A stretch of 37,694 nt of DNA. It comes from Kofleriaceae bacterium (lineage in GTDB: Bacteria; Myxococcota_A; Polyangia; Haliangiales; Haliangiaceae). The position numbers and the translations under genes are program-made. Every line of letters begins with the position of its first letter. Within the stretch, counting starts at the first letter, position 1. Of this stretch, positions 22,626 to 26,918 are shown piece after piece. The stretch lies in NCBI GenBank assembly GCA_018058095.1, contig JAGPCO010000077.1, forward strand, positions 1 through 37,694. The letters are read 5' to 3'. The notes under the pieces are model-generated. The model saw only the letters and a program-made list of their open reading frames with translations. It made no database searches and had not been told where the DNA came from.

Positions 22626-25600
22626 CTACTGGCAGCGCAGGAAGGCCTTGTTGGTGATCTTCGGCGTCACGAAGATCAGCAGCTCGGTGCGCGAGTCGCT
22701 CTCGCGCCGGTTCTTGAAGAACCAGCCGATCACCGGCAGGTCGCCGAGGAACGGCACCTTGCTGTAGTTGAGGCCGGAGTTGCGAGTGTAGATGCCGCCC
22801 ATGACCGTGGTCTCGCCGTCGGCGACGAGGATGCGGGTCCGGGCCTCCTTGCGCAGGATGGTCGGGTCACCGCGGGCGCCGGTGTTGACGAAGTCGGGCT
22901 CGTTCTTGCTGACCTGCAGGTCCATGGCGATCGAGCAGTCGCGCTGCGACACGTACGGCTTGACGGTCAGGCTGAGGTCGGCCGGCACGAACTGGGTCTG
23001 GGTGCCGCTGGCCGAGACGACCGAGATCGGGATCGACACGCCCTGGTTGATGAGCGCCTCGGAGTTGTTGAGCACGGTGATCTTGGGCGCCGAGATGATG
23101 CGGACCGTGCCCGAGTCCTCGAGGGCCGACAGCCGCAGGTTGATGTTGAAGTTGCCGCCGACCGAGCCGAGCGCCAGGCCGAGGGCGCCACCGGCGCCGG
23201 ACCCGACCGCGGCCGGCAGGTTGACCGCGAAGTCCGACGGCGTGGCGGTGCCGGTGTTGTTGGTGTCGCCGTCGTCGGCGCCGCCGGCGACGCCGATGCT
23301 CGACGGGAAGATCAGGCCGGTCGCGTTGCCGCCGTCGGCCGAGGCGCTGGCCCGGCCACCCCACTGGATGCCGAACTCACGCGAGAAGGTCGAGCGCGCC
23401 TCGACGATGCGGGCCTCGATCGAGATCTGCGGGGTCTGGGTGTCGAGCTGCAGGGCCAGGGCCGAGATGCGGCGGCGGTGCGCCAGCACGTCGTTGACGA
23501 TGAGCGAGTTGGTGCGCGGGTCGACCTCGATCTTGCCCTTGGGCGACAGCATCGGCTCGAGCTTGGACTTGAGCTCCTCCGAGCTGGCGTAGTTGAGGGT
23601 CATGACCTCGGGCTCGGGCGCCTCGGCCTCGACCATCGCCTTGCGCCGGGCCGCCTCGGCCTCGTCCTCGGTGTCGAGCTGCTTGCGCGGGGCGACCCGG
23701 TACAGCCGGCCCTCCTTGCGGTACCACAGGCCCTTCGAGGCCAGGATCACGTCGAGCGCGAGGTCCCACGGCACCTGCTTCATGCGCACGGTGACGTTGG
23801 CCTGGATGTCGTCGGGCACGACGATGTTGACCTTGCCGACGTCGGCCAGCAGGCGCAGCAGGTCGTGGATGGGCGCCTCCTTGAAGTTCAGGTCGAGGGT
23901 CGGGCCGCGATAGACCTTCTTGCGGCCCGGCATGACCTGGGCGATCGACTTCTGGGTGATCGGCGCCGAGGTGGCGCCGAAGCCACCGACGACCGGCGGC
24001 GGCAGGCTCTGGGTCCGGGTCCGGGCGTGGCTGGCGGTGGTGGCCCCGCCCAGCTTGAGGCGCAGGGTGGTGCCGTCGCGCTCGAGGCGGGGCGTGGCCG
24101 GCGTGGCCAGCTCGACCAGGACGCGGACCCGGCCCGCGGTGGTGCGGTCGCGGTACGACGACACCGAGCGCACGGCGGTGCCGAACCGGCTGACGTCGAG
24201 CTTGCGCTCGAGCGTGCCCGGCAGGTCGGCGCCGTCGACGACGAGTTCGACCCGACCCGGCCCGGCCGCGACCAGCTCGGCGCGGGCGTCGGCGCCGACG
24301 TCGATGGTGACCTCGGGCGGGCCGGCCTCACCACCCTCGGCGAAGCGGACGTCGCGAATGGCGACCGGCGCGCGCGGGCGTGGCGCGGGCGGCGCGGCCG
24401 CGACCGGGGGCGCGACGGCCGGCGTGGCGGCGGCGGTACGGGCCGAGGCGGCGCTGGCCGCGGCCTCGGCCGCGACGCGCCGGGTCCGCGCGGTCTCGGC
24501 CTCGACCTCGGCGCGGCGGGCGTGCTCGCGCTCGGTCGCCGCGGCGGCCTCGGCGGTGGCGCGCCGTGCCTTGGCCGCCTCGGCCTCGGCCGCGGCGACC
24601 TTGGCGTCGGCGGCGGCGGTGCGGGCCGCGGCCTCCTCGCGGGCGCGGCGGGCCGCGACGTCGCGCAGGAGCGCCTCCTCACGGGCCCGGGTCTGGCGCA
24701 GGGCCGCGGTCTCGGCCTGCAGGGTCGCCAGGTCCGAGGTCGCGGCGGCGCGAGCTGCCTCGACCTTGTCGAGCTCGCCCTGGGTCTTGCCGACGGCGGC
24801 GACCCGGCGCTGCAGCTCCTGGTCGGCCCGCGCCCGCTCGTCGTCGAGGCGCGCGGCCTCGCGCCGCAGCCTGGTCAGCTCGGCGGCCGAGACCTTGCCG
24901 GCCTCGGCTTGCTCGGCCTGGCGACGGGCCGCGTCGGCGGCGGCGGTGCGCGCCTGCGCGGTGGCGCGGGCGCTGGCCTCGGCCTCCATGCGGCGGGCCA
25001 GCTCGGCGGCGGCGCGCTCGCTGTCGGTGCGGGTCTTGCTCGCGATCTTGGCGGCGGCCTCCTCGCGGGCGCGCAGCTCCTCGGCCCGGCGCGCGCTGGC
25101 GCGGGCGGCGGCGGCGGCGGTCTCTTCCTGGGCCCGGGCCGCGGCGGCGGCGGTGGCCTGGGCCCGGGCGGTGGCCGCAGCCTGCTCGGCGCTGCTGGCC
25201 TGGGCCCGCGCCGCGGTGGCGGCGTGCTCGGCCGCGGCCTTGGCCCGCTCGGCCACGACCTTGGCCTGCTCGGCGCTGGCCCGGCCCTGCTCGGCGGCGG
25301 CCCGGCGCGCCTCGGCGGCGGCGACGGCCTGGCTCGCCTGCTCGACCTCGCGCTGGGCCCGGCCCGCGGCCTCTTCGGCGGCGGTCCGGACCTGCTCGCT
25401 GCGCCGGGTCGCCTCGTCGGCGCGGGTCCGGGCCGCCTCGGCCTGCTTGCGCTGGGCCAGGGCGACGCGGGTCGCGTCCTCGGCGGCGCGCAGGCGCTGC
25501 TCGGCGGCGCGGGCCTCGGCCTCGAGGCGCTGCCGCTCGGCCTTGGCCTCGGCGGTGGTGGCCTGGCCGGCCGCGCGCGCCCGCGCGGCCTGGGTCTGCG

Positions 25601-26918
25601 CCTCGGCGCGCACGCGCGCGGCCTCGTCCTGGGCGGTGCGGGCCGCGGCCTCACGCTCGCTGGCGGCGCGGGCGGTCGCCTCGGCCTGCTGCTGCGCCGC
25701 GCGGGCGGCGGCGATGTCGCGGTCGGTCCGGGCCAGCTTGTCCTTGGCCTCGGCCATCATCTTGTCGGCCTGGCGGCGGGCCTGCTCGGCGCCCTGACGC
25801 GCGGCCTCGGCGTCCTTGCGCGCGGCCTCGGCGGCGACGCGATCGGCGGCGGCGGCGGCGCGGGCGGCGCTGGCCTCGGCCTGCGCCTGCGTCGCCTGCT
25901 CGCGCGCGGTGGTGGCCAGGGCGCGGTCGCGCGCGGCGTCGGCGCGCGCGGCCTCGGCCTGGACCCGCGCGGCGTCGGCGCCCTTGCGCTCGGCCACCGC
26001 GACGCGGCGGTCCTCCCGCGCGGCGGCCTGGGCCTGCTCGGCCAGGGCCCGCGCGGCCTCGGCCTGGGCGCTGGCGCGCGTGGCCTGGGCCCGGGTCCGC
26101 TCGGCCTCGGCGGCGGCGTCGGCCGCCTGCTTGCTGGCGCGAGCGGCGATGGCGCGCGCCTCGTCGATCTGGGCCTGGGCCTTGGCGCGCTCGGCGCCCG
26201 AGGCGCGCTGCGCCCCTTGCCCCTGCTGCTGCAGGCGGGCCGCCTCGGCCTGGGCCCGGGTCACCTCGGCTCGGGCCTGCTCGGCGGCGACGCGGGCGCG
26301 CTCGGCGTCCTGCTGGGCGGTGGTGGCGGCGGCGCGCAGCGCGTCCGCCTCGGACCGGGCCTGCTTGGCCTGGGCCTCGGCGGCCTGGCGCGCGGCCTGG
26401 GCCTGGGCCTGCCCGACGCGGGCGGCCTCGGCCTCGGCGCGGGCGGCGGCGACGTCGGCCGGCGACGCGCCGGCCGGGCGCGGATCACGTGGGGTGACGG
26501 TGACGACCAGGTCCTTGCCGTCGGGCTTGACGTCGTACCGGCCCGGCCGGGCCAGGGTCACGACCAGGCGGACCATGGCGCCGTCCCCGTCGAGCGCGCT
26601 GGCCTGCACCTGGGACACCGCCCAGGTGTTGGGCGTCCACGTCATGCCGCGCTCGTGCGGGTCGCGCACGGCGTCGGTCAAGGCCGCGTTGCTGACGTCG
26701 ACCACGACGCGGGTCGGTCGGTCGAGTCGGTACACGCTGAAGGTCGCCGTCGACGAGCCGCGCAGGCGGACCGTCGTCGTCCCGGCCGCGCCGGCCTGTT
26801 CGCTGGTGACCACCGCCTGGATCTGGTTGCGATCTCCGGCCCACGCCAGGCGTGCGCTGGTGGTCGCGGCGACGGCCACGGTGAGGGCGATGAGCGACTT
26901 CAGATGGATTCCGGACAT
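22626..26918 (-). CDS. pilQ: Type IV pilus secretin PilQ with a giant Ala-rich helical insert
   Basis: A 1430-residue outer-membrane secretin through which the pilus passes; PilQ is usually 600-900 residues. A signal peptide ends near residue 27 (RLAWA). Residues about 30-145 are a first AMIN (peptidoglycan-binding) domain (TFSVYRLDRPTRVVVDVSNA). Residues about 150-840 are almost entirely Ala/Arg/Glu/Gln with helix-type runs such as AEAEAARVGQAQAQAARQAA. A second AMIN-like domain is at about 850-960, the N0/STN domain at 996-1080 (TLDLNFKEAPIHDLLRLLAD), the N1 domain near 1110-1160, and the secretin core at 1163-1425 (ISIEARIVEARSTFSREFG, VPFLGDLPVIGWFFKNR). GAGGAG precedes ATG 26918. It is separated from pilP by an unusual 211-base leader. 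Confidence 0.97.
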   Translation of the reverse strand: MSGIHLKSLIALTVAVAATTSARLAWAGDRNQIQAVVTSEQAGAAGTTTVRLRGSSTATFSVYRLDRPTRVVVDVSNAALTDAVRDPHERGMTWTPNTWAVSQVQASALDGDGAMVRLVVTLARPGRYDVKPDGKDLVVTVTPRDPRPAGASPADVAAARAEAEAARVGQAQAQAARQAAEAQAKQARSEADALRAAATTAQQDAERARVAAEQARAEVTRAQAEAARLQQQGQGAQRASGAERAKAQAQIDEARAIAARASKQAADAAAEAERTRAQATRASAQAEAARALAEQAQAAAREDRRVAVAERKGADAARVQAEAARADAARDRALATTAREQATQAQAEASAARAAAAADRVAAEAARKDAEAARQGAEQARRQADKMMAEAKDKLARTDRDIAAARAAQQQAEATARAASEREAAARTAQDEAARVRAEAQTQAARARAAGQATTAEAKAERQRLEAEARAAEQRLRAAEDATRVALAQRKQAEAARTRADEATRRSEQVRTAAEEAAGRAQREVEQASQAVAAAEARRAAAEQGRASAEQAKVVAERAKAAAEHAATAARAQASSAEQAAATARAQATAAAAARAQEETAAAAARASARRAEELRAREEAAAKIASKTRTDSERAAAELARRMEAEASARATAQARTAAADAARRQAEQAEAGKVSAAELTRLRREAARLDDERARADQELQRRVAAVGKTQGELDKVEAARAAATSDLATLQAETAALRQTRAREEALLRDVAARRAREEAAARTAAADAKVAAAEAEAAKARRATAEAAAATEREHARRAEVEAETARTRRVAAEAAASAASARTAAATPAVAPPVAAAPPAPRPRAPVAIRDVRFAEGGEAGPPEVTIDVGADARAELVAAGPGRVELVVDGADLPGTLERKLDVSRFGTAVRSVSSYRDRTTAGRVRVLVELATPATPRLERDGTTLRLKLGGATTASHARTRTQSLPPPVVGGFGATSAPITQKSIAQVMPGRKKVYRGPTLDLNFKEAPIHDLLRLLADVGKVNIVVPDDIQANVTVRMKQVPWDLALDVILASKGLWYRKEGRLYRVAPRKQLDTEDEAEAARRKAMVEAEAPEPEVMTLNYASSEELKSKLEPMLSPKGKIEVDPRTNSLIVNDVLAHRRRISALALQLDTQTPQISIEARIVEARSTFSREFGIQWGGRASASADGGNATGLIFPSSIGVAGGADDGDTNNTGTATPSDFAVNLPAAVGSGAGGALGLALGSVGGNFNINLRLSALEDSGTVRIISAPKITVLNNSEALINQGVSIPISVVSASGTQTQFVPADLSLTVKPYVSQRDCSIAMDLQVSKNEPDFVNTGARGDPTILRKEARTRILVADGETTVMGGIYTRNSGLNYSKVPFLGDLPVIGWFFKNRRESDSRTELLIFVTPKITNKAFLRCQ

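Follow-up and report, generated by a model that had tools for sequence, protein, structure and literature searches.

PilQ is the outer membrane secretin of the type IV pilus. The present study shows that in a Kofleriaceae bacterium of the order Haliangiales (Myxococcota) this protein carries, between two AMIN domains, an insert of about 675 residues that by its sequence is a heptad coiled coil. The gene lies on contig JAGPCO010000077.1 of assembly GCA_018058095.1, of which 37,694 nucleotides, called here the window, were analysed. The insert is helical, is interrupted at hinges, is conserved across many lineages and bears the charge signature expected of chains paired in parallel and in register. 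Our favoured interpretation, held with moderate confidence, is that the insert is a parallel coiled coil, long and hinged, which tethers the secretin ring to the peptidoglycan. An Ala-rich helical insert at 24390-26460 was the starting point of the work (the original prediction) and it was recovered at 24444-26462. The feature proved larger than first claimed. It occurs in many lineages of the phylum, with lengths of up to about 1,690 residues, as seen in a survey of 379 Myxococcota genomes and in the 35 genomes of the order that were searched.

The gene is a single uninterrupted frame with an ATG start, and its product has a N terminus like that of a signal peptide. The layout of the protein is as follows.

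22626..26918, minus strand: pilQ, 1430 residues, type IV pilus secretin with the giant predicted coiled-coil insert
26835..26918, minus strand: signal peptide-like segment, residues 1-28, judged by eye
26484..26786, minus strand: AMIN domain 1 (AMIN1), residues 45-145, a peptidoglycan-binding type of domain, from the domain scan
24444..26462, minus strand: predicted coiled-coil insert, residues 153-825, with heptad repeats and no proline beyond the first residue
26181..26231, minus strand: hinge 1, Gly-rich break near residues 236-248 (AlphaFold break at 236-240, heptad register break at about 248)
25524..25580, minus strand: hinge or turn A near residues 451-455, a Ser/Thr capping-box position kept in much of the genus
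24804..24908, minus strand: hinge or turn B near residues 674-678, conserved N-cap (S/T/G/N-x-x-E/D/Q-L/I) followed by Leu-containing coil
24066..24359, minus strand: AMIN domain 2 (AMIN2), residues 854-951, from the domain scan
23688..23831, minus strand: STN/N0 domain, residues 1030-1077, score under the Pfam cut-off, position as expected
23427..23609, minus strand: Secretin_N/N1 domain, residues 1104-1164, from the domain scan
22653..23126, minus strand: Secretin domain, residues 1265-1422, from the domain scan

PilQ scores 391 bits to TIGR02515, the family of type IV pilus secretin PilQ (cut-off 284). PF00263 and PF03958 are above their cut-offs, STN is present below its own, and the AMIN family PF11741 matches twice, at 39.3 and 26.2 bits (cut-off 20.5). 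The fold of AMIN2 matches M. xanthus PilQ and the B2 domain of N. meningitidis PilQ (Z 14.0, rmsd 2.5 for the latter). A secretin with N0 and N1, AMIN domains at the N terminus and pilM, pilN and pilP as neighbours identify it as a type IVa pilus secretin. The genome holds one PilQ together with motors of the PilT family.

The insert consists of Ala (40%), Arg (15%), Glu (12%) and Gln (9%), while Leu, Val, Ile and Met together contribute about 7%. Proline occurs once in its 676 residues, at the first position, as against 42 times in the remaining 731 residues of PilQ. Translated in its five other frames, the DNA of the insert yields 12-241 prolines. The GC content at third codon positions (GC3) is 0.976 within the insert and 0.969 in the remainder of pilQ, and this equality indicates one continuous coding frame. 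The description of the insert as almost pure Ala/Arg/Glu/Gln holds for most of it but not for its C-terminal part (residues about 678-825), which is a coiled coil containing Leu and is not purely Ala-based. Across lineages the Ala content increases with GC3 (rho 0.57) and the hydrophobic content decreases (rho -0.58), and the window PilQ has the highest GC3 of the compared set (0.99). Its nearly pure composition is thus what a heptad coil becomes at the GC-rich end of the range.

Several measures point to heptads. Autocorrelation of Ala in the window insert has maxima at 7, 14 and 21, and the Ala period is 3.51. Acidic residues followed by basic ones at i+3 (z 7.3) and basic residues followed by acidic ones at i+4 (z 8.0) are enriched, and like charges at i+4 are under-represented. 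The hydrophobic period is 3.50-3.57 in nearly all lineages, and heptads are retained where GC3 is 0.37-0.6. A seven-state heptad model, trained unsupervised (without register labels), gained 0.139 bits per residue on Ala-rich inserts and 0.142 on the others, compared to 0.006 and 0.005 on shuffled sequences, and the longest unbroken register run extends over 436 residues. In the Ala-rich inserts the model places Ala/Leu/Val at position a, Ala/Leu at d, Arg/Lys at e and Glu/Asp at g and b; in the other inserts a is Leu/Val/Ile, d is Ala/Leu, and e and g are charged. The scarcity of hydrophobic core residues noted at first does not speak against a coil, as the core is formed by Ala and Leu in a clear heptad. 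In more distant families, the five long linkers between AMIN domains (L126, L127, L129, L131, L134) contain proline and show no salt-bridge pattern. A single alpha-helix (ER/K) domain was considered and rejected, the insert being about 34% charged and 40% Ala with a seven-residue stripe.

The orientation of the chains was approached through charge. In a coiled coil, a residue at g and the following e' at i+5 meet between parallel in-register chains and not within one helix. The register was assigned blind to the sign of the charge, D, E, K and R being treated as one class, and the signs were counted afterwards. The ratio of opposite to like pairs from g to the following e' was 234:93 in the Ala-rich inserts, 461:281 in the others and 19:7 in the window insert alone. 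In nearly all remaining register pairs at i+5 the opposite fraction was at most 0.6, the exception being d to b (0.68, n=31). When the lineages were thinned to 27, the g-e' ratio was 587:311 (65%), and 23 of the 27 pointed in the same direction. Permutation of charges within each protein and register gave 0.503 (sd 0.016), with a maximum of 0.551 in 500 permutations. The pattern therefore favours parallel in-register chains, whatever their number, and with such a signature the coils of neighbouring secretin subunits probably pair. The bundling between subunits that had been suggested for the insert is favoured by the same charges.

AlphaFold was run on AMIN1, insert and AMIN2 as a single chain, with 14 sequences. 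In PilQ numbering it gave helices at residues 153-235, 241-309, 325-450, 456-673 and 678-823, with pLDDT mostly 70-88 and low dips, and a pTM of 0.30. The helix breaks near residues 240, 453 and 676, and register breaks found from the sequence independently of the model, at about residues 248, 443 and 681, fall within about 10 residues of three AlphaFold breaks. The N-cap motif of turn B (residues 674-678) is conserved within the genus and recurs in a second family (L066); the motif of turn A is Ser/Thr-rich. A hinged coil is well supported, and its hinges either turn back or merely bend. The whole PilQ of a relative (L101) was modelled poorly except for its helices (mean pLDDT 50), and a sequence search of the insert against the PDB gave no match at E 0.001.

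These hinges could also allow each chain to fold on itself into antiparallel hairpins, giving a compact arm of about the depth of the periplasm with AMIN1 near AMIN2. The AlphaFold breaks (residues about 236-240, 310-324, 451-455 and 674-677), the capping boxes that are conserved at turn A and turn B and the almost equal length of segments 2 and 3 in the window (about 210 and 220 residues, about 31-33 nm) speak for such folding, and the best VIA matches to model residues 316-551 are SMC and chemoreceptor hairpins at Z 13-15. However, a Z of about 14 falls in the range that the tool calls common for helical models, pTM is low, and the g-e' pairing at i+5 points to parallel in-register chains. 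Furthermore, the arms are unequal in relatives (436 and 223 in L062), unbroken register runs reach 300-436 residues, and complementarity of charge and hydrophobicity about each centre, a weak test of hairpin symmetry, has no peak at the predicted turns. We consider folding within one chain unlikely, though it deserves to be kept in mind. The structure prediction proposed at the outset has thus been carried out for the monomer, and it yielded hinged helices with hairpins at the low pTM already mentioned.

The tether which we favour would work as follows. Here PilQ would represent an old variant of the type IVa pilus secretin in Myxococcota, whose linker between two AMIN domains of the peptidoglycan-binding type became a very long, hinged coiled coil. 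Secretins are outer membrane rings of 12-15 subunits (PMC10653833). Where chains emerge side by side from one ring, a parallel in-register arrangement would be expected, in agreement with the charges, and the chains of neighbouring subunits could pair as rods. The rods would exit the ring at AMIN2 and terminate in clustered AMIN1 domains. As long tethers or outriggers they would fasten the secretin to the wall at a distance from the pore and distribute the load that arises when the pilus retracts. In M. xanthus, the AMIN domains of PilQ are reported to bind peptidoglycan at the septum and the poles and to be required for polar recruitment (PMC10653833), and AMIN1 of coil-bearing PilQs may by analogy sit on the wall. 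At about 0.15 nm per residue a straight coil of 675 residues measures about 100 nm and one of 1,684 residues about 250 nm. The expectation that the insert, if straight, would be about 100 nm and too long to cross the periplasm is thereby supported. Being longer than the periplasm, the coil has to lie along the envelope, bend at its hinges or fold back; we suppose that it extends along the envelope.

A number of observations weigh against the tether. In the single-chain AlphaFold model the helix is interrupted at the hinges, and adjacent segments pack against each other in antiparallel hairpins (their likeness to SMC and chemoreceptor hairpins is in the Z range just discussed), and the register also breaks at hinges, so that a straight rod of 100 nm is unsupported. 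Many AMIN-bearing lineages without a coil still retain pilQ, and a length range of 250 to 1,690 residues is odd for a precise device. Alternatively, the coils of all subunits could bundle round the axis of the pilus, forming a collar beneath the secretin that would guide or seal the pilus. Parallel in-register pairing in a ring of subunits agrees with this and the conserved hinges are compatible with it, but a coil of 100-250 nm would have to fold several times to fit into any periplasm, and we regard such a collar as improbable.

The insert seems to have changed its length in steps. Among indels of at least three residues in twelve close pairs, not all of them independent, 32 of 88 (36%) were whole heptads. 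The proportion was 13% between distant pairs and 21% in simulated indels of random length, and the low value in the distant-pair control indicates that the excess is not made by the aligner itself. The DNA of the insert contains repeat units of 21 bp, and the indels fit gain and loss of such units with selection for register. Growth by slippage, as was proposed originally, is thus partly upheld, since whole-heptad indels favour growth by repeat units; slippage alone, without any function, is disfavoured. A neutral low-complexity expansion in GC-rich DNA would account for the 21 bp units, the heptad-sized indels and the increase of Ala with GC3, but hardly for the exclusion of proline over up to 1,684 residues, the heptads kept at GC3 0.37-0.6, charge pairing far beyond permutation and retention in many families, and it is considered very improbable. 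More tentatively than the tether itself, we suggest that throughout the lineage the ring is anchored by parallel coiled-coil outriggers of 40-250 nm to peptidoglycan well away from the pore, the length of the outriggers being altered by gain and loss of whole heptads.

PilQ was found in 30 of the 35 genomes of the order. The coil is present in 19 of the 20 order loci that were extracted whole or partly (L055-L074; three of the 19 end at a contig edge), and in one of them it is short (L071, 249 residues). The comparison of PilQ length across relatives that had been called for is thereby supplied. Among extracted Myxococcota PilQs the gap from AMIN1 to AMIN2 varies from 15 to 1,686 residues, with proline-free inserts of up to 1,684. 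It is 690 residues in the isolate Paraliomyxa miuraensis (L174), 631 in a metagenome-assembled genome (MAG) of Bradymonadales (L189) and 16-40 in Polyangium sp. 6x1 and other Polyangiales. Inserts of 279-387 residues occur in the single-contig genomes G042, G119 and G183. A survey of named genomes took the best 80 loci, whose titles were myxobacterial or unspecific, and among these the closest named records were Kofleriaceae MAGs. In a tree of the secretin part, a quick FastTree build with long branches flagged, the insert-bearing rows group in a single clade of 123 rows. Losses are nested within it, above all one in Polyangiales, and parsimony gave seven state changes for presence of the insert over the whole tree. 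A single origin is likely, with one old gain and a few losses. Four PilQs inside the insert-bearing clade have no coil (L112, L106, L153 and the remaining order locus, L070 of genome G021), probably as separate losses; the linker of L070 is instead acidic and rich in Gly and Asp. In a group on the Polyangiales side (L108, L191, L195, L200, L211) PilQ has 541-597 residues and neither AMIN nor coil was found. Family f26 (L090, L091, L092) has PilQ frames of about 2,300-2,440 residues. Their coil register breaks at intervals of about 100 residues, in contrast to other families, whose runs are long and unbroken.

About one third of the order's PilQ contigs stop within the insert (G005, G002, G009, G023, G024, G027, G028, G029, G006, G032). 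The region evidently resists assembly, so that annotations of MAGs may lack the insert or cut it short and give lengths that are too low. The contig ends speak for an artefact of assembly or binning, and we give this almost no credence because independent assemblies, single-contig genomes and the P. miuraensis isolate carry the insert. A local or assembly expansion, as considered originally, is likewise not supported, given the 19 of 20 order loci, the single-contig genomes and the many other families with the insert.

The genes pilM, pilN and pilP lie directly upstream of pilQ in one cluster.

27130..27882, minus strand: pilP, PF04351
27885..28707, minus strand: pilO-like gene, start approximate, from its frame and its place between pilN and pilP
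28730..29386, minus strand: pilN, PF05137
29383..30429, minus strand: pilM, TIGR01175

Directly downstream of pilQ is a fused shikimate kinase/3-dehydroquinate synthase (AroK-AroB) at 21011-22618 on the minus strand; pilMNOPQ beside aroK and aroB is an arrangement known in other bacteria. A plus-strand open frame of 1531 residues (22569-27164) spans all of pilQ and more long frames overlap it. These result from the scarcity of stops in GC-rich DNA, and no gene is claimed for them. Elsewhere in the genome (L217, contig C90 of G000, near 6855) there is a LysM protein with a frame of 462 residues, assigned by no family model, which we take to resemble the pilus anchor TsaP in its LysM sequence. 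The coil thus does not look like a substitute for a lost TsaP, and that idea was rejected, the TsaP-like protein being still in the genome.

If the coil is a tether, a very strong bacterial motor would here be fastened to the wall in a second manner, and the natural series of lengths, from 0 to about 1,690 residues, could serve to test how secretin anchoring governs force, pole placement and reach. A search of titles and abstracts in the open-licence literature, including one for a secretin with a long coiled coil, found no description of a giant PilQ coil. The word "coiled" is absent from the main text of two surveys of myxobacterial pili (PMC6060248, PMC13190605), and those of their passages that were consulted are without such an insert. 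The PilQ coil may have been overlooked.

Among known systems, domain II of TolA is also a long helical periplasmic segment of Ala and charged residues. The likeness is compositional only. TolA has an inner-membrane anchor and neither AMIN nor secretin domains; identity with TolA was rejected, domain scans of PilQ giving only AMIN, STN, Secretin_N and secretin. In Myxococcus xanthus and its relatives, PilQ is alike in the order pilMNOPQ and in having AMIN domains ahead of N0/N1 and the secretin. M. xanthus PilQ has three AMIN domains with linkers described as flexible. Corallococcus praedator PilQ likewise has three; Corallococcus PilQ (L202) differs from the window PilQ in its Pro/Ala-rich linkers and in having no coil. 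Neisseria and Vibrio PilQ carry AMIN domains on linkers, and a giant coil is not reported for them in the literature searched. SlpA of Deinococcus radiodurans combines an outer membrane barrel, a trimeric coiled coil of about 28 nm and a wall-binding SLH domain (PMC9388160). It would be alike in working and not in ancestry, as a barrel is joined by a long coil of identical chains to an N-terminal peptidoglycan-binding domain. It is unlike PilQ in that barrel and wall domain belong to other families and the coil is a trimer of the length of the periplasm, whereas the coil of PilQ has 250-1,690 residues and is borne by a pilus secretin.

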